NCBI RefSeq assembly: GCF_038561935.1
Contig: NZ_CP102770.1
Span: 3,844,001-3,908,000 of the forward strand
Direction of reading: 5' to 3'
Length of the DNA stretch: 64,000 nucleotides
Origin: Myxococcus stipitatus
GTDB lineage: Bacteria; Myxococcota; Myxococcia; Myxococcales; Myxococcaceae
In this document: positions 6,655 to 16,806 of the stretch, piece by piece
How the letters are laid out: each line of letters starts with the position of its first letter
Numbering within the stretch: position 1 is the first letter of the stretch
Made by a program: the position numbers and the translations under genes
The notes under the pieces: generated by a model
What the model was told of the DNA's origin: nothing
Seen by the model: the letters and a program-made list of their open reading frames with translations, nothing else
Database searches by the model: none

Positions 6655-6760
6655 CGGGCGCGGGGATACCGCCGTGGGCGCTGTTCGCGAGTAGACTGCC
6701 CCTCCCGTCACGGTCCGGGCGAAGGTGCGCTCGGGCCACGACGACGCGGAGGGGTTTTCG

Positions 6761-8551
6761 ATGATTCGGGGTTCGCAGCGAGTCGCCGGAGTGCTGGGTC
6801 TGATGTTGGCCGTGACGGCGGCGGCTCAGGAAGTGGAATACAAGGACCTGGGTCATCGCGTGCTCAGCACGCCGGCGGACCCCTTCGTCTTCTACGTGGA
6901 TGGGCGCTCGTCGCTGCCCGCGGGGAACGACCTGGCCAAGGTGGTGGCGGCCAGCCGCGCGGCCTTCCAGGCGTGGCAGGGCGTGAACTGTGCCTGGCCC
7001 GTCTTCTCCTTCCCACCGGATGGGGGCGTGGCCACGACGGGCTCGCCCATGCCGAAGGTGGATGACCCGGCGGACCGCTTCAACGTCGTCCCCGTCTGGG
7101 TGACGGACCGGCAGGACCCCCGGTACGTGGACTCGCTCAGGGGCGGAGACAGGCCCGCGGCGGCGCGGCCGCTGACGTTCGCGGGCTACGTGTACCAGTG
7201 CGACATCTTCCTCAACGCGGTGGACCACCGCTGGTCCACCCAGACGCCCACGCCCTCGGGTCACCTGGATATCCAGAGCACCCTGATGCACGAGATTGGT
7301 CACTGCCTGGGCCTGGGCGACTCCTATGAAGCGCAGGGCGCGGTGATGTTCTTCTACCTGCCGGAAGGGGAGACCCGCAGGACGCTCGCCAGCTACGACA
7401 CGGCCGCGCTGTGCCGCTTCTATCCGAAGACGGGCGCGGTGGGCTCCCCCTGCGACACCTCCGCGTGTGGCACCGGTCTGACGTGTGTCACCGTGCCTTC
7501 CACCGTCTCTGGCAAGGACCTCAAGGTCTGCGCGAAGGGGTGCTCGGGCACCACCACCGGCGAGTGTCCGGACCCCTACGTGTGTCGCGCCTCCACGCTC
7601 GTCGCGGGCTCCACCCAGGCGTGTCTCCCCGCCCTTCCCGACGGTGTGACGCCGGTGGGCCGCGAGTGCACGCCGGGCCCCCGGGCCTGTGGCAACACGA
7701 ACGGCACCTGCATTCCTCCCGTGACGACGCCGTCGGGCAATGGCGACTTCGACCGGTGGGACCTGGGCTATTGCACGGAGGCCTGCAGCGGCGCGGGCTC
7801 GTGCCCCGCGGGCGCGGAGTGCGCCAGCATGCCGGGGCAGGGCTCCATCTGCTTGAAGACCTGTGATGTGAATGGAAGCGATTGCCGCCCTGGCTATACG
7901 TGCGAGGCCCGCGCCGAGGGCAGCGTCTGCGTCCCGGGTTGCTTTGGTGACCTGGATTGCGACAGTAACTCCGTTTGCAGGACGTGTGACCGCGTCTGTG
8001 TGCCGAAGAAGGCCTCGGCCCGGCAGGTGGGAGATGCGTGCACGGCCGACGCGGAGTGCGGCACCAATCAGTACTGCCTCTTCGCGGAGGGCAACCCCCA
8101 GGGCGTCTGCGCTCAGCCGTGCTCGGTGGCGGCCTGCTCCTGCCCGGGCGGGACGTCGTGTCAGGTGGTGAACAAGGACGGCGAGCGTGCGTGCATGAAG
8201 TACTGCGCGCCGAGCACGTGTGCCTCCTCCCTCCGCTGCGGCACGACGGAGCAGGGGACTCCCGCCTGCCAGCCGGCCTGCCAGTCGGACCAGGACTGCG
8301 GCCCGTCGATGCGCTGTGGGAATGGGGGGACCTGTTACGATCCCAAGGCGCGGCCGGACGCGGGAAGCGGCTGCGCGCTGTGCAATGACGCGGGGACGCC
8401 TCCGCCGCTCCCGGATGCGGGCCCGGAAAGCCCCAAGGGAGAGTCGGGGGGCTGTGGTTGCCAGAGCACGCCGGTGTCCGCGGTGCTCCTGGGCGGCCTG
8501 GTCCTGCTGTTGCTCATGGCTGGAAGGAGACGGAATTGGCACAAGCAGTGA
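6761..8551 (+). CDS. exported Cys-rich metzincin-like protease with MYXO-CTERM tail
   Basis: A 596-residue exported protein. ATG 6761 has GGAGGGG seven bases upstream. Residues 1-21 form a signal peptide (RVAGVLGLMLAVTAAAQ). A zinc-protease domain follows with H177-E-I-G-H-x5-D (HEIGHCLGLGD), the metzincin HExxHxxGxx(H/D) pattern with Asp as third ligand position. Residues from about 230 to 535 are a chain of short Cys-rich units resembling the repeats of other myxobacterial surface proteins (CTADAECGTNQYC, CQSDQDCGPSMRC). The end has SGGCGCQST, a hydrophobic helix and AGRRRN, a MYXO-CTERM sorting signal expected to be cleaved for surface display. Its 3' end overlaps the ATPase gene downstream. 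Confidence 0.85.
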   Translation: MIRGSQRVAGVLGLMLAVTAAAQEVEYKDLGHRVLSTPADPFVFYVDGRSSLPAGNDLAKVVAASRAAFQAWQGVNCAWPVFSFPPDGGVATTGSPMPKVDDPADRFNVVPVWVTDRQDPRYVDSLRGGDRPAAARPLTFAGYVYQCDIFLNAVDHRWSTQTPTPSGHLDIQSTLMHEIGHCLGLGDSYEAQGAVMFFYLPEGETRRTLASYDTAALCRFYPKTGAVGSPCDTSACGTGLTCVTVPSTVSGKDLKVCAKGCSGTTTGECPDPYVCRASTLVAGSTQACLPALPDGVTPVGRECTPGPRACGNTNGTCIPPVTTPSGNGDFDRWDLGYCTEACSGAGSCPAGAECASMPGQGSICLKTCDVNGSDCRPGYTCEARAEGSVCVPGCFGDLDCDSNSVCRTCDRVCVPKKASARQVGDACTADAECGTNQYCLFAEGNPQGVCAQPCSVAACSCPGGTSCQVVNKDGERACMKYCAPSTCASSLRCGTTEQGTPACQPACQSDQDCGPSMRCGNGGTCYDPKARPDAGSGCALCNDAGTPPPLPDAGPESPKGESGGCGCQSTPVSAVLLGGLVLLLLMAGRRRNWHKQ

Positions 8552-10380
8552 GCGGCTCGGGCCCATCGCCGGCGAGGAGCCGGGTTGACTTCACCACCCT
8601 GTTCGTCCTCGAGGCGCTCGTGGGGCAAGGGCTGCTGACGCCTCAGCAGGCCCAGGAGGTGCTCGCGAAGGAGGGCGCGGCGCGAGCGCGCGTCCTGAAG
8701 ACGCAGGCGGCCTCGGGTGGCAAGGACGCCGCGCGGTACGACGTGTCGCCGGTGGAGGTGGTCGCCGCCTTCCAGATTCCCCTGGCCAATGGCCGGGGGG
8801 CGCTGGACGAGGACCGCGTCACGGAGGCCGCCGCACGCGCGTCGGGGCTGGCCTATCGCAAGATAGACCCGCTCAAGCTGGACATGACGCTGGCCACTCG
8901 CACGGTGTCCCGGCCGTACGCGCAGAAGCATGTCCTGCTTCCGCTGGAGCGTACGGCGCAGGGGCGGTTGGTGGTCGCGGTGGCGAACCCGTTCGACCGG
9001 GAGCTGTTCGAGAGCTTCCACCGGCTCACGGGGCTGCCCGTGGAGCCGGTGCTGAGCGCGAAGGCGGACATCCTCAAGGCCATCTCGGACATCTACGGCT
9101 TCAAGAAGACGCTGGCGCGCGCGGCGGATGACTTCGGCGGCGTGGCGAGCGCGCAGCAGATCTCCAACTTCGAGCAGCTCGTCTCGCTCAGCGGGACGCA
9201 GGAGCTGGAGGCTTCGGACCGGCCGGTGGTCCAGGCGGTGGACTACCTCCTGCGCTACGCGTTCGACAATCGCGCCTCAGATATCCACATCGAGCCCAAG
9301 CGGTCCACCAGCCAGGTCCGCCTGCGCATCGATGGGGTGCTGCACCCGGTGTACTCGCTGCCAGCGCAGGTGCATGCGCCCATCGTCTCGCGCGTGAAGA
9401 TGCTCTCGCGCATCGACATCTCGGAGAAGCGCAAGGCGCAGGACGGCCGCATCAAGACGGAGCGGGACGGACGCGAGGTGGAGTTGCGCGTCAGCACGCT
9501 GCCCACGGCCTTTGGCGAGAAGGTGGTCATCCGCATCTTCGACCCGGAGACGCTGGTGCAGGACATCGCCCAGCTCGGTTTCGAGCCGGACGAGAAGGGC
9601 TCCTTCGAGTCGTGGATCGACCAGCCCCACGGGCTCATCCTCGTCACGGGGCCCACGGGCAGCGGGAAGACGACGACGCTCTATTCGGCGCTCAAGGCGC
9701 TGGCGGGGCCGGACGTCAACGTCACCACCATCGAAGACCCCATCGAAATGGTGTGGGACGCCTTCAACCAGGTGCAGGTGCAGCCCAAGGTGGGGCTCGA
9801 CTTCGCGGGGGCGCTGCGCCACATCCTGCGGCAGGACCCGGACGTCATCATGGTGGGCGAGATTCGAGACACGGAGACGGCGGAGAACGCCATCCAGTCC
9901 GCGCTCACGGGTCACCTGGTGCTGTCCACGCTGCACACGAACGACGCGCTGGGCGCGGTGGCGCGCATGAGAGACCTGGGCGTGCCCTCGTTCCTCCTCG
10001 CGCAGAGTCTGCTCGGTGTCATGGCGCAGCGGCTGCTGCGCCGTGTGTGCAGTCATTGCGCGGAGGAGGCGAGCCTCACTCCGGACGAGTTGCTGGCGCT
10101 CCAGGCTCCGCTTCCGTTGTTGCCGGGTGGGGTGAGGATGCTCAAGGGCGCGGGCTGCGTCCGGTGCCGCGGCACGGGCTATGTGGGCCGCACGGGTGTC
10201 TTTGAAATCGTCACCACGAACGGGGAACTGCGAGAGCACATCGCTCGCGAGTCGCCGTACGAGAAGCTGGTGGAGATTGCTCGGCGCGGAGGCATGCGCA
10301 CGCTGCGCGAGGCCGCGGTGCGAAAGCTGGCGCAAGGCCTCACCGCGTTCGATGAAGTGGTGCGAATGACTTCCGCGTGA
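8536..10380 (+). CDS. GspE/PilB-family secretion or pilus assembly ATPase
   Basis: A 614-residue AAA-type traffic ATPase. The N-terminal third resembles the MshEN/GspE-N domain that in some members binds c-di-GMP. The catalytic part has Walker A GPTGSGKTT at residues 372-380, an Asp box, Walker B ILRQDPDVIMVGEIRD, a His box (TGHLVLSTLHTNDA), and the C-terminal tetracysteine zinc motif CSHC...CVRCRGTGYVGRTG. Such ATPases power type II secretion or type IV pilus extension at the inner membrane. The best start is TTG 8536, which has AAGGAG six bases upstream; GTG 8548 is an alternative. Either overlaps the preceding protease gene. No other secretion or pilus genes are nearby, so the machine it serves cannot be read from context. 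Confidence 0.88.
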   Translation: MAQAVSGSGPSPARSRVDFTTLFVLEALVGQGLLTPQQAQEVLAKEGAARARVLKTQAASGGKDAARYDVSPVEVVAAFQIPLANGRGALDEDRVTEAAARASGLAYRKIDPLKLDMTLATRTVSRPYAQKHVLLPLERTAQGRLVVAVANPFDRELFESFHRLTGLPVEPVLSAKADILKAISDIYGFKKTLARAADDFGGVASAQQISNFEQLVSLSGTQELEASDRPVVQAVDYLLRYAFDNRASDIHIEPKRSTSQVRLRIDGVLHPVYSLPAQVHAPIVSRVKMLSRIDISEKRKAQDGRIKTERDGREVELRVSTLPTAFGEKVVIRIFDPETLVQDIAQLGFEPDEKGSFESWIDQPHGLILVTGPTGSGKTTTLYSALKALAGPDVNVTTIEDPIEMVWDAFNQVQVQPKVGLDFAGALRHILRQDPDVIMVGEIRDTETAENAIQSALTGHLVLSTLHTNDALGAVARMRDLGVPSFLLAQSLLGVMAQRLLRRVCSHCAEEASLTPDELLALQAPLPLLPGGVRMLKGAGCVRCRGTGYVGRTGVFEIVTTNGELREHIARESPYEKLVEIARRGGMRTLREAAVRKLAQGLTAFDEVVRMTSA

Positions 10381-10424
10381 GATGAGAAGGCGATGAAGTC
10401 ATTCGTAAGTGTGGGAGGGGTGTC

Positions 10425-11030
10425 GTGATTCTCTTTCGGCCCGTGGGGCTCGAAGAACTGCTGTTGATCTCCCGGACGGGGATGCGGCGTTTTCCGCCGC
10501 GTCTGCCTGATCAGCCCATTTTCTATCCAGTGCTCAATCGCGGGTACGCGGAGCAGATTGCGCGGGATTGGAACACGAAGAGCGGGACCCTGGCCGGCTA
10601 CGTCACGGAGTTCGAGGTCGAGGACACCTACGCCCGCTCCTTCGAGGTTCAGCAGGTAGGCGGCCGGGAGCACCTGGAGCTCTGGGTGCCCGCGGAGTCC
10701 CTCGACGTGTTCAATGACCACATCCAGGGGACGATTCGGGTGCTGGGTGCCTTCTTCGGCGCGTCATTCGCCGGAGTGGTCCCCACCGAGTCCGCGCTGA
10801 AGGGGAAGAACGCGCGAGAGCAATTCGAGGCATTGCGAGCCCTCCAGGCCCAGGAGCCGGGTGCCCTTCAGCGAGAGGTCACCGTGAATCACGAGGCGGT
10901 GTTCGCGCACTTCTTCTTCTGGGAGCAGATGGGGGAGGGGAGTACCTCCACGCAGGAGACGAAGGCCACATTGGCGGCCATCCGAGCTGCGTGGTCCTCG
11001 GCCTTCCCCGAGATGCCACTGGGCGCCTGA
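10425..11030 (+). CDS. conserved hypothetical protein (YPVLNxxYA...IARDWN family)
   Basis: A 201-residue soluble protein starting at GTG 10425 with GGGAGGGG five bases upstream. The pattern PPRLPDQPIFYPVLN, then YAEQIARDWNTK, a GYVTEFEV strand and ELWVPAESLDVFN matches a widespread family of small proteins that I remember being labelled ADP-ribosylation/crystallin J1 without experimental basis; that label should not be trusted. The C-terminal 60 residues, with HEAVFAHFFFWEQMG, seem less conserved. It sits 44 bases after the GspE-like ATPase on the same strand and ends before a strong bidirectional hairpin, so it may be the last gene of that transcript. Confidence 0.66.
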   Translation: MILFRPVGLEELLLISRTGMRRFPPRLPDQPIFYPVLNRGYAEQIARDWNTKSGTLAGYVTEFEVEDTYARSFEVQQVGGREHLELWVPAESLDVFNDHIQGTIRVLGAFFGASFAGVVPTESALKGKNAREQFEALRALQAQEPGALQREVTVNHEAVFAHFFFWEQMGEGSTSTQETKATLAAIRAAWSSAFPEMPLGA

Positions 11031-11037
11031 AAAGACA

Positions 11038-11072
11038 GACGGCCCGGTCTCTCGGCGAGGACCGGGCCCGTC
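11038..11072. terminator. bidirectional GC hairpin between convergent genes
   Basis: GGCCCGGTC at 11041-11049 pairs perfectly with GACCGGGCC at 11060-11068, and GAC/GTC extend the stem with one bulged base. It sits between the convergent genes ending at 11030 and 11098. There is no U-tract on either strand. Confidence 0.65.
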
Positions 11073-11097
11073 GTCAGGCTTTCAAGTCCGTGGAATG

Positions 11098-12564
11098 TCA
11101 GTCGATGAGCTTCGTCCCCGCCACCAGCGACTTGGCGGGAACCTCTTCGCCGAGCGTGGAGTAGGTGGTGCCGGACTGACGTTCGCCGCGCACACATTCG
11201 GCGGGCGCGTCAGGGCGGGACTGAACCCAGACGTAGATGTCTCCCTCGTGCGTCGCTCCCAGGGCGTAGGTGCGATGGCCGGGTTGAGGGCCCGTCGTGT
11301 CGTCAAACAGATGTGCGAAACGTGGGGCCGTGCAGGGCTGGTGGGGCGTCCGCGCCAACAGTCGCGTGCAGGCTGCATCCGCGTAGTGCCCGTCGTTGCC
11401 TCGCGTCACAGAGGCTTCGGTGAGCGGGAAGCAGCGCGGTGTCCCCTCGACGTCCGACCGGAAGCCGCACTCGACGCCCAGCTGGGTGTCGTGGATCTCC
11501 CGAGGAAGCTGGAGCACTCCCCCCAGTTGAGCACCGCGCACCTTGAGGCGGCCGTACGTCTTGAGGTCGAGCTCCTGGGCCTCGAGCCAGGTCGCGGCGG
11601 GAAGCTCCTTGCCCGGGCTGAAGTAGCGCCATCCCGAGGATTGGATGGGCGAGGGCTCGCACGAATCCCCGTACCGTGCATACACCTGGGACAGCTCCGT
11701 GCCGATGTCATGGGTGGCAGTGGTGGGGCTGCACCGTGCTTCCGAAGTGATGGCCGCGAAGCGGGGCGTGTCGCAGAGGGTTCCAACGGCCTGCTCCGTA
11801 CACGTCGCATTCGCGCTCATCCTGAGGCCGCCAAAGCTGAGGGCGGTGGAGCTGCCTGAAGGCAGACAGCGCAGCTTCTGGTCACTTGCCCGCTCGATGG
11901 CGCACTCCGTATCCCGGGCCGTGTCCCGGATGCGGTGGATGCCCGAGGACCCATCCTCTCCATCGACGTACAGGAGCGTGAAGCCGCTTCCGCTCCACTT
12001 CTGGGTGAGCTGCCCCCGGACGTAGAGGTTGCCAGCGGGGACTTCCGCGCCGGCCCGGTAGGCCACGTATCCAGCTGACAGTGCTCGCGGAATGCACGCC
12101 CCGGTGTTGAGGTCCAGGTAGTAGGGCGTGGCCGTCACGAGCTCGCCCAGGGCGTGGAACCGTGGGAGCTCGCCGCAGGCACCGCGCTTCGTGAGGACCG
12201 CGCCCGAGGGCATGGGGCCCCAATTGACGCGGAGTCCTTCGGTGCAGCGCGCATCGGCGTAGAAGTCTCCCCGGCTGCCGGGGGCTGGAAGGGTGAACTG
12301 TCCTTCGTGGCTCACGCAGTAGTAGGCGCCATCGGGCCCCGCCTTCTCCCACGAGCAGTCCGCCTGCCGCTGGCTGTCGTGCATGCGCTCAATCCAGCGC
12401 AGCCCATCATTCGTGGTGATTCCTCGGGCCTTGATGCGTGAGCCGCTCTTGAAGAGCTCGATGGGAGTCTTCCCCCCGGGCCCGCCTTCGTCCGCATCCT
12501 TCGTGGTTCCACACCCCATCCCCCACAACACCGCGAGCAGCACGCCTGCCTGGACACGACGCAT
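11098..12564 (-). CDS. lipoprotein with triplicated Cys-containing module, paralogue A
   Basis: A 488-residue exported protein of unknown function. ATG 12564 has AGGGGG upstream, followed by a signal peptide ending at C18 (LAVLWGMGC), so it is probably a lipoprotein, although the -3 Gly is not the classic lipobox residue. The rest reads as three modules of about 150 residues. Each begins with a GRIK/GRLK-type strand, then an (H/R)D(S/T)xxxxxxC element, a second Cys in YCVS / RCLP / RCFP, a third Cys in CTE or CTR, and ends in two strands of the form Y-x-x-G-x-E-(L/V)-x-x. The same length and plan as its neighbour at 12778-14244, with clear identity along the whole chain, show tandem duplication. 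No enzyme motif is visible. Confidence 0.78.
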   Translation of the reverse strand: MRRVQAGVLLAVLWGMGCGTTKDADEGGPGGKTPIELFKSGSRIKARGITTNDGLRWIERMHDSQRQADCSWEKAGPDGAYYCVSHEGQFTLPAPGSRGDFYADARCTEGLRVNWGPMPSGAVLTKRGACGELPRFHALGELVTATPYYLDLNTGACIPRALSAGYVAYRAGAEVPAGNLYVRGQLTQKWSGSGFTLLYVDGEDGSSGIHRIRDTARDTECAIERASDQKLRCLPSGSSTALSFGGLRMSANATCTEQAVGTLCDTPRFAAITSEARCSPTTATHDIGTELSQVYARYGDSCEPSPIQSSGWRYFSPGKELPAATWLEAQELDLKTYGRLKVRGAQLGGVLQLPREIHDTQLGVECGFRSDVEGTPRCFPLTEASVTRGNDGHYADAACTRLLARTPHQPCTAPRFAHLFDDTTGPQPGHRTYALGATHEGDIYVWVQSRPDAPAECVRGERQSGTTYSTLGEEVPAKSLVAGTKLID

Positions 12565-12677
12565 CGTTCCCCCTCTTCCACATGAAGTGGGGCGCGGCCT
12601 TCCTGCCGCCCCCGTCTGTTTGCGCCGGTTCTCTATTGTCTCCAGGAATCGACAGCAACTCAGGTGCACAAAGCACA

Positions 12678-12683
12678 AGTATA
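12678..12683 (-). promoter_or_regulatory. possible -10 element for lipoprotein paralogue A
   Basis: TATACT on the minus strand, in an AT-rich island 114 bases before the ATG at 12564. Upstream of it GTCCACT occurs twice as a direct repeat (plus strand, within 12690-12712). No good -35 match was found, so this is only a candidate. Confidence 0.3.
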
Positions 12684-12720
12684 TTTAGTGTCCACTTGAC
12701 ACGAAGTCCACTGAGATGAC

Positions 12721-12756
12721 AACGACCCGGCCGCCCAAGAGGGTGACCGGGTCGTT
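12721..12756 (-). terminator. GC hairpin after lipoprotein paralogue B
   Basis: AACGACCCGG at 12721-12730 pairs perfectly over ten bases with CCGGGTCGTT at 12747-12756. It lies 22 bases past the stop of the gene at 12778-14244 and on the minus strand reads into CCGGGTCGTT with only a short TT end. Confidence 0.7.
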
Positions 12757-12777
12757 GGACCTCCTTGCGTCGAAGTG

Positions 12778-14244
12778 TCAGTCCAGCTTGGTCGTGCCCT
12801 GGACCAGCGTCGTCGCGGCAATCTCGGAGCCGAGCTGGTAGTACGTGCTCCCCGGGTTGCGCTCCGTCTGGATGCAGCGGGGGCTGCCCGTGCCGAACAC
12901 CACGCTGACGTAGACGGTGCCATTGAACTGCTGGCCCACGTTGTACGCGCGGTAGCTCGTGTCCGACGGATTCGAGACGTCGTTCTGCAGCACGTAGCGG
13001 TCCGGCGTGCACGACGTGGTGTTGGAGATGCCCACCGGCTTCGTGCAGGAGGCATCCGAGAAGAGGTTCCCCGTGGAGAAGATGCTGGAGAGGGGGAAGC
13101 AGCGCTTCGTGCCCGCGGAGTCCTTCATGAAGGCGCAGTTCGTGTTGAGCTGGGTGTCGTGCAGCGTCAGGGGAATCTGGACCTTTTCACCCGCGCTCGC
13201 GCCACGAATCTTGATCCGCCCGTGGGTCTTGACGTCGATCTCCTTGGCCTCCACGAAGCTCGAGGCGGCAATCTCCGCACCCGCCTGGTAGTAGGACGTG
13301 TTCGGAGGCGTCTGCGGATTCAGCTGGCACGCGCCACCGCCCGTCGTCCCGTAGACCTGGGTGACCTTCGCTCCGGCCGCGTAGACCTTGGCGCCCGGAC
13401 CACACTGGTCCTGCGCGAACGTCACCGCGAAGCGAGGCGTCCCGCACGTCGAGTAGAAGGCCGGCTCGGTGCAGGTGTTGTTCACGGCCGCGACCTTCGC
13501 GTTGCCCACCGCGGTGCTGGTGCCCGTGGGCAGGCAGCGCACCTTGTCGTCGCTCGCCTTCTGGAAGAGGCAGGCCGTGTCCCGGACCGTGTCCTGGATG
13601 TGGTGGAGCTGCGCGGAGCCGTCCTCGCCCTCGATGAAGTGGACCGTGATGCCCTTGTCCGCCTGCTTCTGCTTCACCGTGCCGCGCACGAAGGTGCCAG
13701 CGGCGACCTCGGGGCCGGCGCGGTAGGCCTTGAAGCCGGGCGACACCGGAATGGAGTCGCACGCCCCCGTGCTGCTCTTGGCGTAGACGGACGTCGTGAT
13801 TTCGGCGCCGACGGTGTGGAAGGTCGGGTTCACGCCACACCCGACGTTGCGCTTCATGAAGAAGTCGGTCGCCGCCACGGGCTCCGAGGTGACCACGATT
13901 CCCTCGGTGCAGTTCGCATCGAGGTAGTAGCCCGAGCCACCCGCGGGGACGTACTCCATGCCACCCGGGACGCAGTAGAGGGCGCCATCGGCTCCCGCGC
14001 TCTCCCAGGTGCAGGTCTTCTTCAGCTTGCTGTCGTGCCACTCATCCGGCCAGCGCAGGCCGTCCGTGGTGGTCGTCACCTGGGCCTTGATGCGTGAGCC
14101 GCTCTTGAAGAAGTCGGCGACGTTGATGGTCCCTCCAGGCTCGCCACCCGGCCCCGGATTGTTGTCGTCGTCCGAGTCCTTGGTTCCACCGCAACCCGTC
14201 CCCCACAGCACAGCCAGCACCAACCCTGTGTAGATGCAACGCAT
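12778..14244 (-). CDS. lipoprotein with triplicated Cys-containing module, paralogue B
   Basis: A 488-residue paralogue of the gene at 11098-12564 with the same orientation and length. ATG 14244 is preceded by GGGAAGAC. The signal peptide ends at C18 (LAVLWGTGC), then an acidic linker (KDSDDDNNPGPGG). The three modules are clearest in this copy: near residues 48-185, 185-328 and 328-486. Equivalent elements are WHDSKLKKTC / RDTACLF-type / LHDTQLNTNC; YCVP / RCLP / RCFP; NCTE / TCTE / SCTK; and the closing strands AYRAGPEVAAGTF / YYQAGAEIAASSF / YYQLGSEIAATTL. The regular Cys placement suggests a disulfide in each module, which fits a periplasmic or surface location. No catalytic motif is seen; a structural or adhesive role is a guess. 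Confidence 0.8.
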   Translation of the reverse strand: MRCIYTGLVLAVLWGTGCGGTKDSDDDNNPGPGGEPGGTINVADFFKSGSRIKAQVTTTTDGLRWPDEWHDSKLKKTCTWESAGADGALYCVPGGMEYVPAGGSGYYLDANCTEGIVVTSEPVAATDFFMKRNVGCGVNPTFHTVGAEITTSVYAKSSTGACDSIPVSPGFKAYRAGPEVAAGTFVRGTVKQKQADKGITVHFIEGEDGSAQLHHIQDTVRDTACLFQKASDDKVRCLPTGTSTAVGNAKVAAVNNTCTEPAFYSTCGTPRFAVTFAQDQCGPGAKVYAAGAKVTQVYGTTGGGACQLNPQTPPNTSYYQAGAEIAASSFVEAKEIDVKTHGRIKIRGASAGEKVQIPLTLHDTQLNTNCAFMKDSAGTKRCFPLSSIFSTGNLFSDASCTKPVGISNTTSCTPDRYVLQNDVSNPSDTSYRAYNVGQQFNGTVYVSVVFGTGSPRCIQTERNPGSTYYQLGSEIAATTLVQGTTKLD

Positions 14245-14437
14245 GGTGTCTTCCCGATGATGCTCGAGTAGTGGCGCGGCCCCCATGCCGCGTCCAGCCA
14301 GCCCCCAAGGCTGGCGTTGGTGGCTTAGCTCCAACGCAGCGCGGCGACAACCCGACAGTCGGCCGATGCAATGACTTGAGCCTCCGAACGTTGCGCGGCC
14401 TGCGAATCACAAATCCCATATCTGGAACGACAGCGGT

Positions 14438-14458
14438 CGGTTCCCCAGATGAGAACCG
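14438..14458 (-). terminator. hairpin downstream of decayed lipoprotein copy
   Basis: CGGTTC at 14438-14443 pairs with GAACCG at 14453-14458; imperfect pairing of ACGACGG with CCGCTGTCGT extends the stem outward. It looks like an eroded relative of the hairpins behind the intact paralogues. Confidence 0.4.
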
Positions 14459-14512
14459 GGCCGTCGTCTTGGGTCTCAGCAGTGGAGAGACTTGTCTCTC
14501 ATTCCGCGAGCG

Positions 14513-15105
14513 TCAGTCCCGCGTCCACGTCCCTTCCACCAGCGTGGTCGCCGCGACTTCCGCTCCCTGCTGGTAGTACGCGGCACCGGGCGCGCGCTCC
14601 GCTGGTCGACAGTCGCTCGGCGTCCCTTTGCCGAACGGTCGTTCGACGGTGGGACCCTCGTGCTTCGGGCCCGTGTTGTAGGCGCGGTAGTACGGCGTCG
14701 TCGCCGTGAAGGTGCGCGCGAGGACATGGCGCGACGAAGGCGAGGACGCGCATGTCGGCACGTCTTCGACGCCCAGCGGACTCGTGCAGGCGGCGTCCGC
14801 GAAGAGGTTCTTCAGCTCCACGAAGCTCGAGGCGGGAATCGCCGCGCCCGCCCGGAAGGAGCGCGTATCCGGAGGCATCCTCGTGAGCGGCTGGCACACG
14901 CCCGAGCCCGCCGCGCTGTAGACCTCGGTGACTTCCGCTCCGACTTCGTGGAGCGTGGAGCCAGGGGCACACGACGACTGCGAGAGGCTCACCGCGAAGC
15001 GCGGTGGCGCCACGCAGGCGCGGCATCGGCGGCCTTGGTGCACGTCGTGTTCGCCACGGCGAAGGGCCGCTGTCCGTGTGCGGTGGAGGCGCTGCATGGG
15101 CGGAC
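14513..15105 (-). pseudogene. decayed third copy of the triplicated-module lipoprotein
   Basis: This stretch encodes recognisable pieces of the 488-residue paralogues but cannot make the whole protein. From the 5' side: GQRPFAVANTTCTK matches the second module (AKVAAVNNTCTE in paralogue B); then the frame changes near 15020 to PRFAVSLSQSSCAPGS (paralogue B: PRFAVTFAQDQCGPGA). The second module continues to ASSFVELK, where about 50 residues present in both intact copies (the KTHGRIKIRG...RCFPLS part of module three) are missing, and the frame rejoins at NLFADAACTSPLG. It then runs to the normal family end TTLVEGTWTRD. The signal peptide, all of module one and part of module two are absent, cut close to the terminator of the upstream gene. 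A short exported product is not expected. Confidence 0.78.
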
Positions 15106-15133
15106 TCGTTGGGCCCCAGGCCTGAAACAACAG

Positions 15134-15165
15134 CGGCCCGGCCCCCAGGGAAGGGGACCGGGCCG
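15134..15165 (-). terminator. GC hairpin after outer-membrane-type gene
   Basis: CGGCCCGG at 15134-15141 pairs with CCGGGCCG at 15158-15165, with additional pairing inside (CCCC/GGGG). It lies 30 bases past the stop of the gene at 15195-16727 and is followed on the minus strand by CTGTTGTTTC. Confidence 0.65.
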
Positions 15166-15194
15166 TTGGGGCGGCATGCCGCGGCGCCTGTGGA

Positions 15195-16727
15195 CTAGAA
15201 GCGCGCCTGCAGCAGCGTGTTGAAGCCCAGCGCGTGCGGCTTCTCGAACGTGGGCTGCGCCACGCCGGTGATGTCGTCGCGGAACGTGGTCCGGTTGGTG
15301 TCGTACGTGTAGTAGACCTCGCCGACCGCGGCGACGGAGTCGGACAGGTCCCAGCGGAACGTGGCCTTGGCGGAGTAGATGGGCTCCGCGCCGCACGCGC
15401 CCGAGCCACCGCACGTCTCCGGCAGGATGCTCAGCTGGTTGACGTCACGCACGACCACCGTGCGCGTGCCAATCAGGTTCGCCGGCGGGTTGTTGCCGCC
15501 CAGCACCGGCGTGGGGCTGCGGAACGAGGCCGGACGCTGCACGCCGACGATGACGCCCGGCGTGAAGTGCAGCTTCGGCAGGTGGTAGTCCGCGCCGATG
15601 GCCAGGAACATCTCCGGGTTCAGCTTCGTCCCCTCGGGGAAGTCCTGGAACGGGGGGAAGCCCGGCACGTCGAACTGGATGTACGAGAGGCTGCGGTACA
15701 GGCCCAGCACGTTCATGCGCAGGAAGCCCAGCTTGGCGCGCGCCTGGAGCGCCAGCGCCGTGGCGCCCTGGGGCTTGGTCGCGCCGAACTCGTCCGGCTT
15801 CTCCAGCGTCTGGGACAGGTAGCTGCCCTCGAGCGACACGGAGTAGGACAGGCCACCCGGGTACTGCTCGGGCGCGAAGAAGCGCTCGTAGATCTCCGGG
15901 TCGTTCTTGTAGAGCCGGAAGTCCACGCTGGTGCCCACCGGCACACCCACGTGGTAGACGACCTGCGCGGACAGGCCCGCCGCGTTCACCGGCGCCTCGA
16001 CGCCGAGCGTGGCGAGTCCCGGCACCAGGCCCTTCTGGAAGTAGCCGCCGCCCGCCTCGACGCGCAGCGTGTCCAGGATGTCCCAGCCCGCGCCGGCCAT
16101 GACGCCGTAGAGCGTCTCTTCCTCGAGGATGAGCTCGTTCTGCACCAGCGCCGTCTTGCCGCCGACGTACGCGTACCACTTCTCACGCGTGATCTGCAGC
16201 TTGGCGCCGGGCACGCCGTTGGTGGCCGAGCGCGTGGTGAACACGCCGCTGCCGCCCCACGAGATGCGGTACGCGTAGCCCAGACGGAAGCGGTCCGCGG
16301 ACACCGGGAAGCCGACGAGCGAGACACCTTCCTTCTCACCCCAGCCCGGCGGCTGGTAGTTCAGCCGGATGTAGCTGGAGTTGTCCTGGATGGCGACATT
16401 GCCGCTGGGACGCTCGAGCACCAGCAGCGTCAGCGCGGCCTCCGTCGTCAGTCCCTCGAAGAACGCCGGTGCCCGCTTGTAGAGCACGATGTTCGACAGC
16501 GACTCGAAGCCGGAGAAGCGCGTGTTGAAGTTGTCGTAGAACTGGGTGTTCTGGTTGCCCGCGCCAAACCGCGCATTGGGGCTGTTGGGCGTCGTCTCGC
16601 CCGAGCCCGCCAGCACGTTGTCGTCCGCGAAGACGAACGACAGGCGCGTGTCCACGAAGTCACTGGCCCAGGCGGGCGCACTCAAGGAGATAAGCCCCGA
16701 CAGGGCCAGCTTCTGCAGCGTTTTCAA
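15195..16727 (-). CDS. putative outer-membrane beta-barrel protein
   Basis: A 510-residue exported protein. The best start is TTG 16727 with GGAGAGGG upstream, giving a signal peptide (LKTLQKLALSGLISLSAPAWA). The mature part has alternating short hydrophobic strands with aromatic girdle residues (YAYRISWGGSGVF, WYAYVGGKTALV, LSYSVSLEGSYL, YSAKATFRWDLS) and ends in ...LLQARF, a C-terminal Phe as expected for a protein inserted by the BAM machinery. I recognise no named family; it resembles large myxobacterial barrel proteins of unknown cargo. It is transcribed in the same direction as the two lipoprotein genes upstream, 79 bases after the stop at 16807, and may share their transcript. Confidence 0.7.
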   Translation of the reverse strand: MKTLQKLALSGLISLSAPAWASDFVDTRLSFVFADDNVLAGSGETTPNSPNARFGAGNQNTQFYDNFNTRFSGFESLSNIVLYKRAPAFFEGLTTEAALTLLVLERPSGNVAIQDNSSYIRLNYQPPGWGEKEGVSLVGFPVSADRFRLGYAYRISWGGSGVFTTRSATNGVPGAKLQITREKWYAYVGGKTALVQNELILEEETLYGVMAGAGWDILDTLRVEAGGGYFQKGLVPGLATLGVEAPVNAAGLSAQVVYHVGVPVGTSVDFRLYKNDPEIYERFFAPEQYPGGLSYSVSLEGSYLSQTLEKPDEFGATKPQGATALALQARAKLGFLRMNVLGLYRSLSYIQFDVPGFPPFQDFPEGTKLNPEMFLAIGADYHLPKLHFTPGVIVGVQRPASFRSPTPVLGGNNPPANLIGTRTVVVRDVNQLSILPETCGGSGACGAEPIYSAKATFRWDLSDSVAAVGEVYYTYDTNRTTFRDDITGVAQPTFEKPHALGFNTLLQARF

Positions 16728-16806
16728 TGTCCCTCTCCACGGAGCGCCCGCTCGGAACGCTCCTCCCTGCGCCCCGATGAAACAGGGCGCGAGCTTTGTC
16801 AAAAGT

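Follow-up and report, generated by a model that had tools for sequence, protein, structure and literature searches.

DUF7481 proteins of Myxococcus stipitatus: candidate single-chain counterparts of a trimeric, collagen-stalked head

Three consecutive copies of one cysteine-bearing module raise the question of whether each copy stands by itself or whether the three belong to a single structure. The question is posed by two neighbouring minus-strand genes in a 64,000-nucleotide stretch of the 10.2 Mb genome of Myxococcus stipitatus (contig NZ_CP102770.1, positions 3,844,001 to 3,908,000; hereafter the window), namely those for DUF7481 protein A (P0001, 11098..12564) and DUF7481 protein B (P0002, 12778..14244), each of three modules and 488 amino acids (aa; stop included) and 42% identical to one another. 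The reading favoured here, with a probability of roughly 0.55, is that each protein is an exported, likely lipid-anchored ring of three modules stapled by disulfides, and as such the single-chain counterpart of a trimeric head.

The threefold repeat and its family

In the first-pass annotation, made from the letters of the window, the two adjacent proteins were described as exported and as divided into three equivalent stretches. Self-alignment bears out the repeat: all six within-protein pairs of modules score 64–115, compared with means of about 30 after shuffling (z 6.9–16.1), and none of 1000 shuffles equalled any of the six scores. The threefold internal repeat, with its conserved cysteines, is a property of both 488-residue proteins. 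The landmarks named at that time are recognizable and mostly conserved across a 16-member family alignment, and the count of three cysteines per module proves too low, as the modules hold five, six and five. The statement that no named family has this plan, and the expectation that no known domain would be matched, did not hold, because Pfam PF24297 (DUF7481; curated cut-off 26.1 bits) matches P0001 at 70.7 bits and P0002 at 87.2 bits, far above the cut-off, as it does many relatives. What survives of the claim of an undescribed family is that the known family is one in name only, a domain of unknown function (DUF), with its function listed as unknown in Pfam and no publication naming DUF7481, PF24297, DUF7151 or DUF7107 found in open-licence full text. 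NCBIfam gave no match for either protein, and the best match among PDB sequences reached only E 0.073. The DUF7481 profile itself appears to hold repeats, because lone modules match it at two different places (15–151 for locus L058; about 171–286 for L061, L062 and L063); several lone-module and distant members score below the cut-off.

The census of the family covered 195 genomes of one phylum, the Myxococcota. The Pfam profile detects the family in 14 of these genomes, alignment of the whole protein in 23, and successive module alignments in 23, then 27, and then the same 27, so that the count has levelled off at the present sensitivity. The fetched loci hold 62 distinct open reading frames (ORFs; 60 initially, and two later additions, both with three modules and 16 cysteines), comprising 34 intact three-module proteins, many of which are orthologues or close paralogues and thus not independent rows, 14 intact one-module proteins, and 14 that are cut, broken or spurious; not one is an intact two- or four-module protein. 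The uncounted ORFs are seven cut by contig ends (L022, L023, L057, L072, L136, L141 and L142), six that are fragments, frameshifted or broken (a third copy in the window, L038 (88 aa), L140, L145 (489 aa and 224 aa) and L131), and one spurious match (L094). Three more intact members lie at other places in the genome that contains the window.

Cysteine pairing across module boundaries

The cysteines of the modules fall mainly at seven profile positions: C1–C6 and, less often, C7, which follows C6. The pairing analysis used 31 of the 34 three-module proteins, leaving aside L093, whose modules are degenerate, and two proteins found later. C1 and C2 occur together in 88 of the 93 modules, are both missing in five and never occur singly, and C3 and C6 are invariant (93/93). 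This distribution suggests two disulfides within a module, C1-C2 and C3-C6. The first-pass annotation had supposed one disulfide per module; covariation predicts two inside most modules, together with staples between modules.

The staples concern C4 and C5. In the pattern of the window proteins, shared by 19 of the 31 proteins, module 1 is without C4, module 2 has both cysteines and module 3 is without C5. Whether a module has C5 agrees with whether the next module, taken cyclically, has C4 at 86 of 93 junctions, compared with 42 for the same module and 34 for the previous module; counting the alternate C7 by parity, the three figures become 91, 37 and 39. The cyclic rule was framed after the sequences had been seen, and a recount by raw distance from C3, in which distances of 9–16 and 19–35 residues do not overlap, again gives 86, 42 and 34, which verifies how the cysteines were sorted but adds no independent data. 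Across the ten distinct patterns, the next-module rule fits 26 of 30 junctions (28 with C7), the same-module rule 18 (16) and the previous-module rule 16 (18), and permuting the modules within proteins reaches this fit in 235 of 20000 trials (108 with C7). Nine of the ten patterns are concordant at the junction that would close a ring, from module 3 on to module 1. In three proteins, C5 is missing from module 1 and C7 is present in module 2, which keeps the total at 16. Moreover, the cysteine total of the module region is even in all 34 three-module and all 14 one-module proteins, and the counts of individual modules are often odd (5,6,5; 4,7,5; 5,3,6; 4,5,5).

Because C5 tracks the C4 of the following module cyclically, the three modules would be stapled into a single closed ring with threefold pseudosymmetry, which makes the three-lobed structure first envisaged the less likely arrangement. 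In protein B, the modules lie on the minus strand at 13654..14106 (module 1; Cys 78, 91, 112, 136 and 162), 13222..13662 (module 2; Cys 225, 237, 258, 267, 281 and 306) and 12781..13230 (module 3; Cys 370, 382, 400, 412 and 457). Each would fold with its own C1-C2 and C3-C6 disulfides (78-91, 112-162, 225-237, 258-306, 370-382 and 400-457), and C5 would bond the C4 of the module that follows (136-267 and 281-412), by which all 16 module-region cysteines would be used. The modules of protein A lie on the same strand at 11986..12450 (module 1; five cysteines), 11554..11994 (module 2; six) and 11101..11562 (module 3; five).

Structure prediction is compatible with pairing beyond the single module. 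AlphaFold2 models protein B without its leader (4 sequences) as nearly all beta, with a predicted local distance difference test (pLDDT) score of 80.8 and a predicted template modelling (pTM) score of 0.74, and models module 2 of the same protein alone (12 modules) with values of 83.4 and 0.74; if the modules were beads with no link between them, a whole-chain pTM of 0.74 would be high. When module 2 is modelled alone, its last segment is coil in all but one residue; in the full-chain model the same segment forms a strand (E294-303), which the first strand of the next module (E306-313) follows. The full-chain model also contains a C-terminal strand (E444-449). A strand that forms in the full chain, the C-terminus included, but not in the lone module is likely to have its partner in another module; for the C-terminal strand the partner would lie beyond module 3, and module 1 is the simplest candidate.

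Three other arrangements deserve consideration, each of them improbable to a similar degree. The first, which is compatible with the proposed ring, is that a known ring fold, such as a beta-propeller lectin, a C1q/TNF-like fold or a trefoil, was missed through an imperfect model. Weak Foldseek matches include propellers and fascin, and there is a precedent among fucose lectins, in which RSL makes by trimerization of three chains the architecture that homologues such as AAL make in one (PMC6631993). However, RSL and AAL are six-bladed propellers, and P0002 has no fold match: TM-scores are about 0.1, and the best VIA-align Z scores are 2.3 (977 chains, whole protein) and 2.0 (995 chains, lone module). 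Foldseek against the PDB returned no match at E 0.001 or better for the whole protein (0/277) or the lone module (0/373), nor did it for the lone module against viral models (0/265), and no C1q/TNF-like fold is among the matches listed by Foldseek or VIA-align. A missing fold match does not prove a new fold. A six-bladed propeller with two blades per module was considered and dropped in view of the TM-scores of about 0.1 to propellers.

The second arrangement, likewise doubtful, retains the staples between modules 1 and 2 and between modules 2 and 3, and leaves a curved chain unclosed, in which the missing C4 and C5 reflect the chain ends. This is exactly the form of the commonest pattern. However, the distant relative L018, in which the profile found two modules and a 156-residue gap was assigned to the middle one by inspection before its alignment, keeps solely the pair between modules 3 and 1, three further patterns hold all three inter-module pairs, and the full-chain model shows a strand at the C-terminus. 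The third, in which the modules are separate lobes strung one after another, each closing its own disulfides, and the repeat adds avidity only, is also unlikely: single modules do occur as whole proteins, and the prediction for the lone module is fairly confident, but modules 1 and 3 usually hold an odd number of cysteines within an even total, the same-module rule fits fewer than half of the junctions, the whole-chain pTM is high for such an arrangement, and the census holds no intact protein of two or four modules. A single bond between the odd cysteines of modules 1 and 3 was dropped, since L043 and L054 fit the cyclic rule better and module 1 is lacking exactly C4 and module 3 exactly C5.

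Collagen stalks on one-module relatives

Collagen-like Gly-X-Y (GXY) runs of at least nine triplets precede the module in five of the 14 one-module proteins (L024/L058, L026/L062, L059, L061 and L065). The Pfam collagen model (cut-off 27.2 bits) matches L059, L062 and L065 above its cut-off and L058 (17.8) and L061 (21.5) below it, and DUF7481 is matched above its own cut-off in L058 and L062, below it in L061, and is not listed for L059 and L065; in L062, both models exceed their cut-offs within one ORF. Of the other nine one-module proteins, L095 bears a different N-terminal piece and the rest have linkers that are Gly/Ser-rich or of another kind. Proline-free or nearly proline-free GXY-like runs of fewer than eight triplets, in L018, L093, L124 and L126, were not scored as collagen. 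No such stalk occurs in the 32 three-module proteins, in the two added later, or in 208 other genes predicted by a simple gene caller in 21 neighbourhoods, and in P0001 and P0002 no GXY run extends to four triplets. Fisher p-values are 0.0015 (5/14 vs 0/32) and 5e-7 (vs 0/208), and are optimistic because the rows are related. Collagen matches are also found in other genes, and 14 of 15 tested genomes have some. C4 and C5 are both present in four of the five collagen-stalked modules, compared with none of the nine other single modules.

These observations suggest that the one-module relatives, five of them on collagen stalks, may build from three chains the ring that P0001 and P0002 would build from one, the equivalence of the two forms resting, like the closure of the ring, on covariation. 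It is tempting to go further and to regard the family as a natural single-chain trimer with a fold new to the PDB, of which the relatives in the phylum make the three-chain version by means of the same two staple cysteines, although this fuller proposal is given slightly less than an even chance.

Trimeric beta-rich heads on collagen stalks are a feature of BclA, C1q and TNF-like proteins; to our knowledge, inter-subunit cysteine staples have not been described for such heads, and none of these heads is among the fold matches listed for P0002. Prokaryotic collagen-like proteins have been the subject of a review (PMC8968730). Among these systems, Lcl of Legionella is a trimeric collagen lollipop whose C-terminal head binds glycosaminoglycans, and thus shares the collagen-like stalk, C-terminal head and trimeric state proposed for the five stalked relatives; in contrast to the DUF7481 head, that of Lcl contains DUF1566, resembles C-type lectins and is reported to lack disulfides (PMC11162425). 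A further difference from Lcl is the lack of collagen in the window proteins. By analogy with Lcl, RSL and AAL, the ring may bind a ligand multivalently at the cell surface, in adhesion or in the recognition of prey, kin or polysaccharide, and binding at several equivalent sites is a guess from the same analogy. In this reading, DUF7481 represents a trimeric head made in one chain, on an exported protein that evolves fast and varies from site to site, and it is probably a ligand binder.

Such an architecture would provide an uncharacterized family with explicit, testable features, including eight named disulfides. The natural pair of three chains on a collagen stalk and one fused chain would be of use in the study of how oligomers become single proteins. 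In addition, fast-changing and site-variable exported proteins are of interest in social predatory bacteria, in which prey and kin recognition remain questions.

The N-terminal part of the collagen-stalked protein L058:1462-2364 (-) shows similarity to phage tail fibres (phrog_5073) and weak similarity to CBM_5_12. L058 and L062 have many PHROGs matches, most of them within the N-terminal and collagen parts; P0002 has one match, at E 0.061, and P0001 and L095 have none. The different N-terminal piece of the single-module protein L095:1318-1977 (+), TFSAGGAIRAEEMNSNFDA, is reminiscent of trimeric fibre-like proteins.

Export, genomic site and evolution

Both proteins begin with a signal-like N-terminus, read by eye, that ends in a lipobox-like sequence at Cys18 (...LWGMGC in protein A, 12511..12564, minus strand; ...LWGTGC in protein B, 14191..14244, minus strand). 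The lipobox of bacterial lipoproteins is [LVI][ASTVI][GAS]C following the signal peptide; in both P0001 and P0002, Gly-Cys occupies residues 17-18 and position -3 is G, not L. Judging from these sequences, the proteins are probably exported and probably carry a lipid anchor at Cys18. The sequence further suggests a flexible linker rich in Gly, Pro and Asp; on such an anchor and linker, a compact ring would be displayed at the cell surface.

The intact pair is adjoined by the third family copy, at about 14516-15117 on the minus strand, which is degraded: its reading frame is broken, module 1 was not found, and its nearest relatives are intact genes in tandem arrays in other Myxococcus genomes. 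These genes occupy an island (10380-15195) between two flanking genes, one of which we take to be PilB/GspE-like and the other a 535-aa gene (15198-16802, minus strand). The family is present at this site in seven of 27 Myxococcus genomes; in 16 it is missing and the flanking genes lie within 400 bases of each other, and four are unresolved. Counting all sites, eight of the 27 genomes contain the family. The 535-aa neighbour is present in all 27, whether or not the family lies beside it, is 98–99% identical between close relatives and matches no Pfam family. Apart from the syntenic site of the window, no common partner gene was found in 16 family neighbourhoods (the window and L146-L160, with four sites in the window's own genome). 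The ratio of non-synonymous to synonymous substitution rates (dN/dS) of P0002 between close genomes is 0.22, 0.45 and 0.39, compared with 0.03–0.22 for the flanking genes.

In a tree of modules (78 rows, 147 columns; 25 of 75 inner branches open), modules 1, 2 and 3 of Myxococcus group apart, with support of 100/92 (10 rows), 88/82 (10 rows) and 100/99 (11 rows), respectively. A wider module 2 group (14 rows, 98/91), in which two long branches meet, also includes proteins from a different family of the same order and from elsewhere in the phylum. Since the three modules form separate groups, the tree points to one old triplication.

Several of the observations weigh against the stapled ring and its trimeric equivalent. 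With regard to the cysteine rule, L034 violates two of its three junctions, the degenerate L093 stood outside the test, the permutation support over distinct patterns is only moderate, three of the ten patterns carry C4 and C5 everywhere and cannot discriminate, and two patterns (three proteins) stem from one genome. The closure of the ring and its disulfides are deduced from covariation, and neither Foldseek nor VIA-align found a matching solved structure. Collagen is lacking in nine of the 14 single-module proteins, which need not form trimers, four of the five collagen-stalked modules cluster in the tree (93/61), so that their shared cysteines may reflect descent, and the tree does not order the one-module and three-module forms in time. 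The dN/dS of P0002 is below 1 throughout and, for the closest pair of genomes, equals that of the fastest flanking gene (0.22). Finally, the searches yielded no ligand, partner gene or fold indicative of function.

Origins from mobile elements were also considered and rejected: a tblastn search of phages and one scan of viral contigs with one collagen-stalked module, and a tblastn search of plasmids with P0002, found no relatives. Among the genes near family members, a 462-aa lipoprotein-like ORF (L044:2595-3983 (-)), about 2 kb from a tandem family pair, has a C-terminal HHIVEQ stretch that is presumably nuclease-like. At L146:1-6667, a stand-alone family paralogue lies beside other genes, which we take to be a VgrG-like pair and transposase-like genes. 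In the window itself, a 608-aa ORF with a long cysteine-rich tail (6725-8551, plus strand) contains HExGHxxGxxD, presumably a metalloprotease-like motif.

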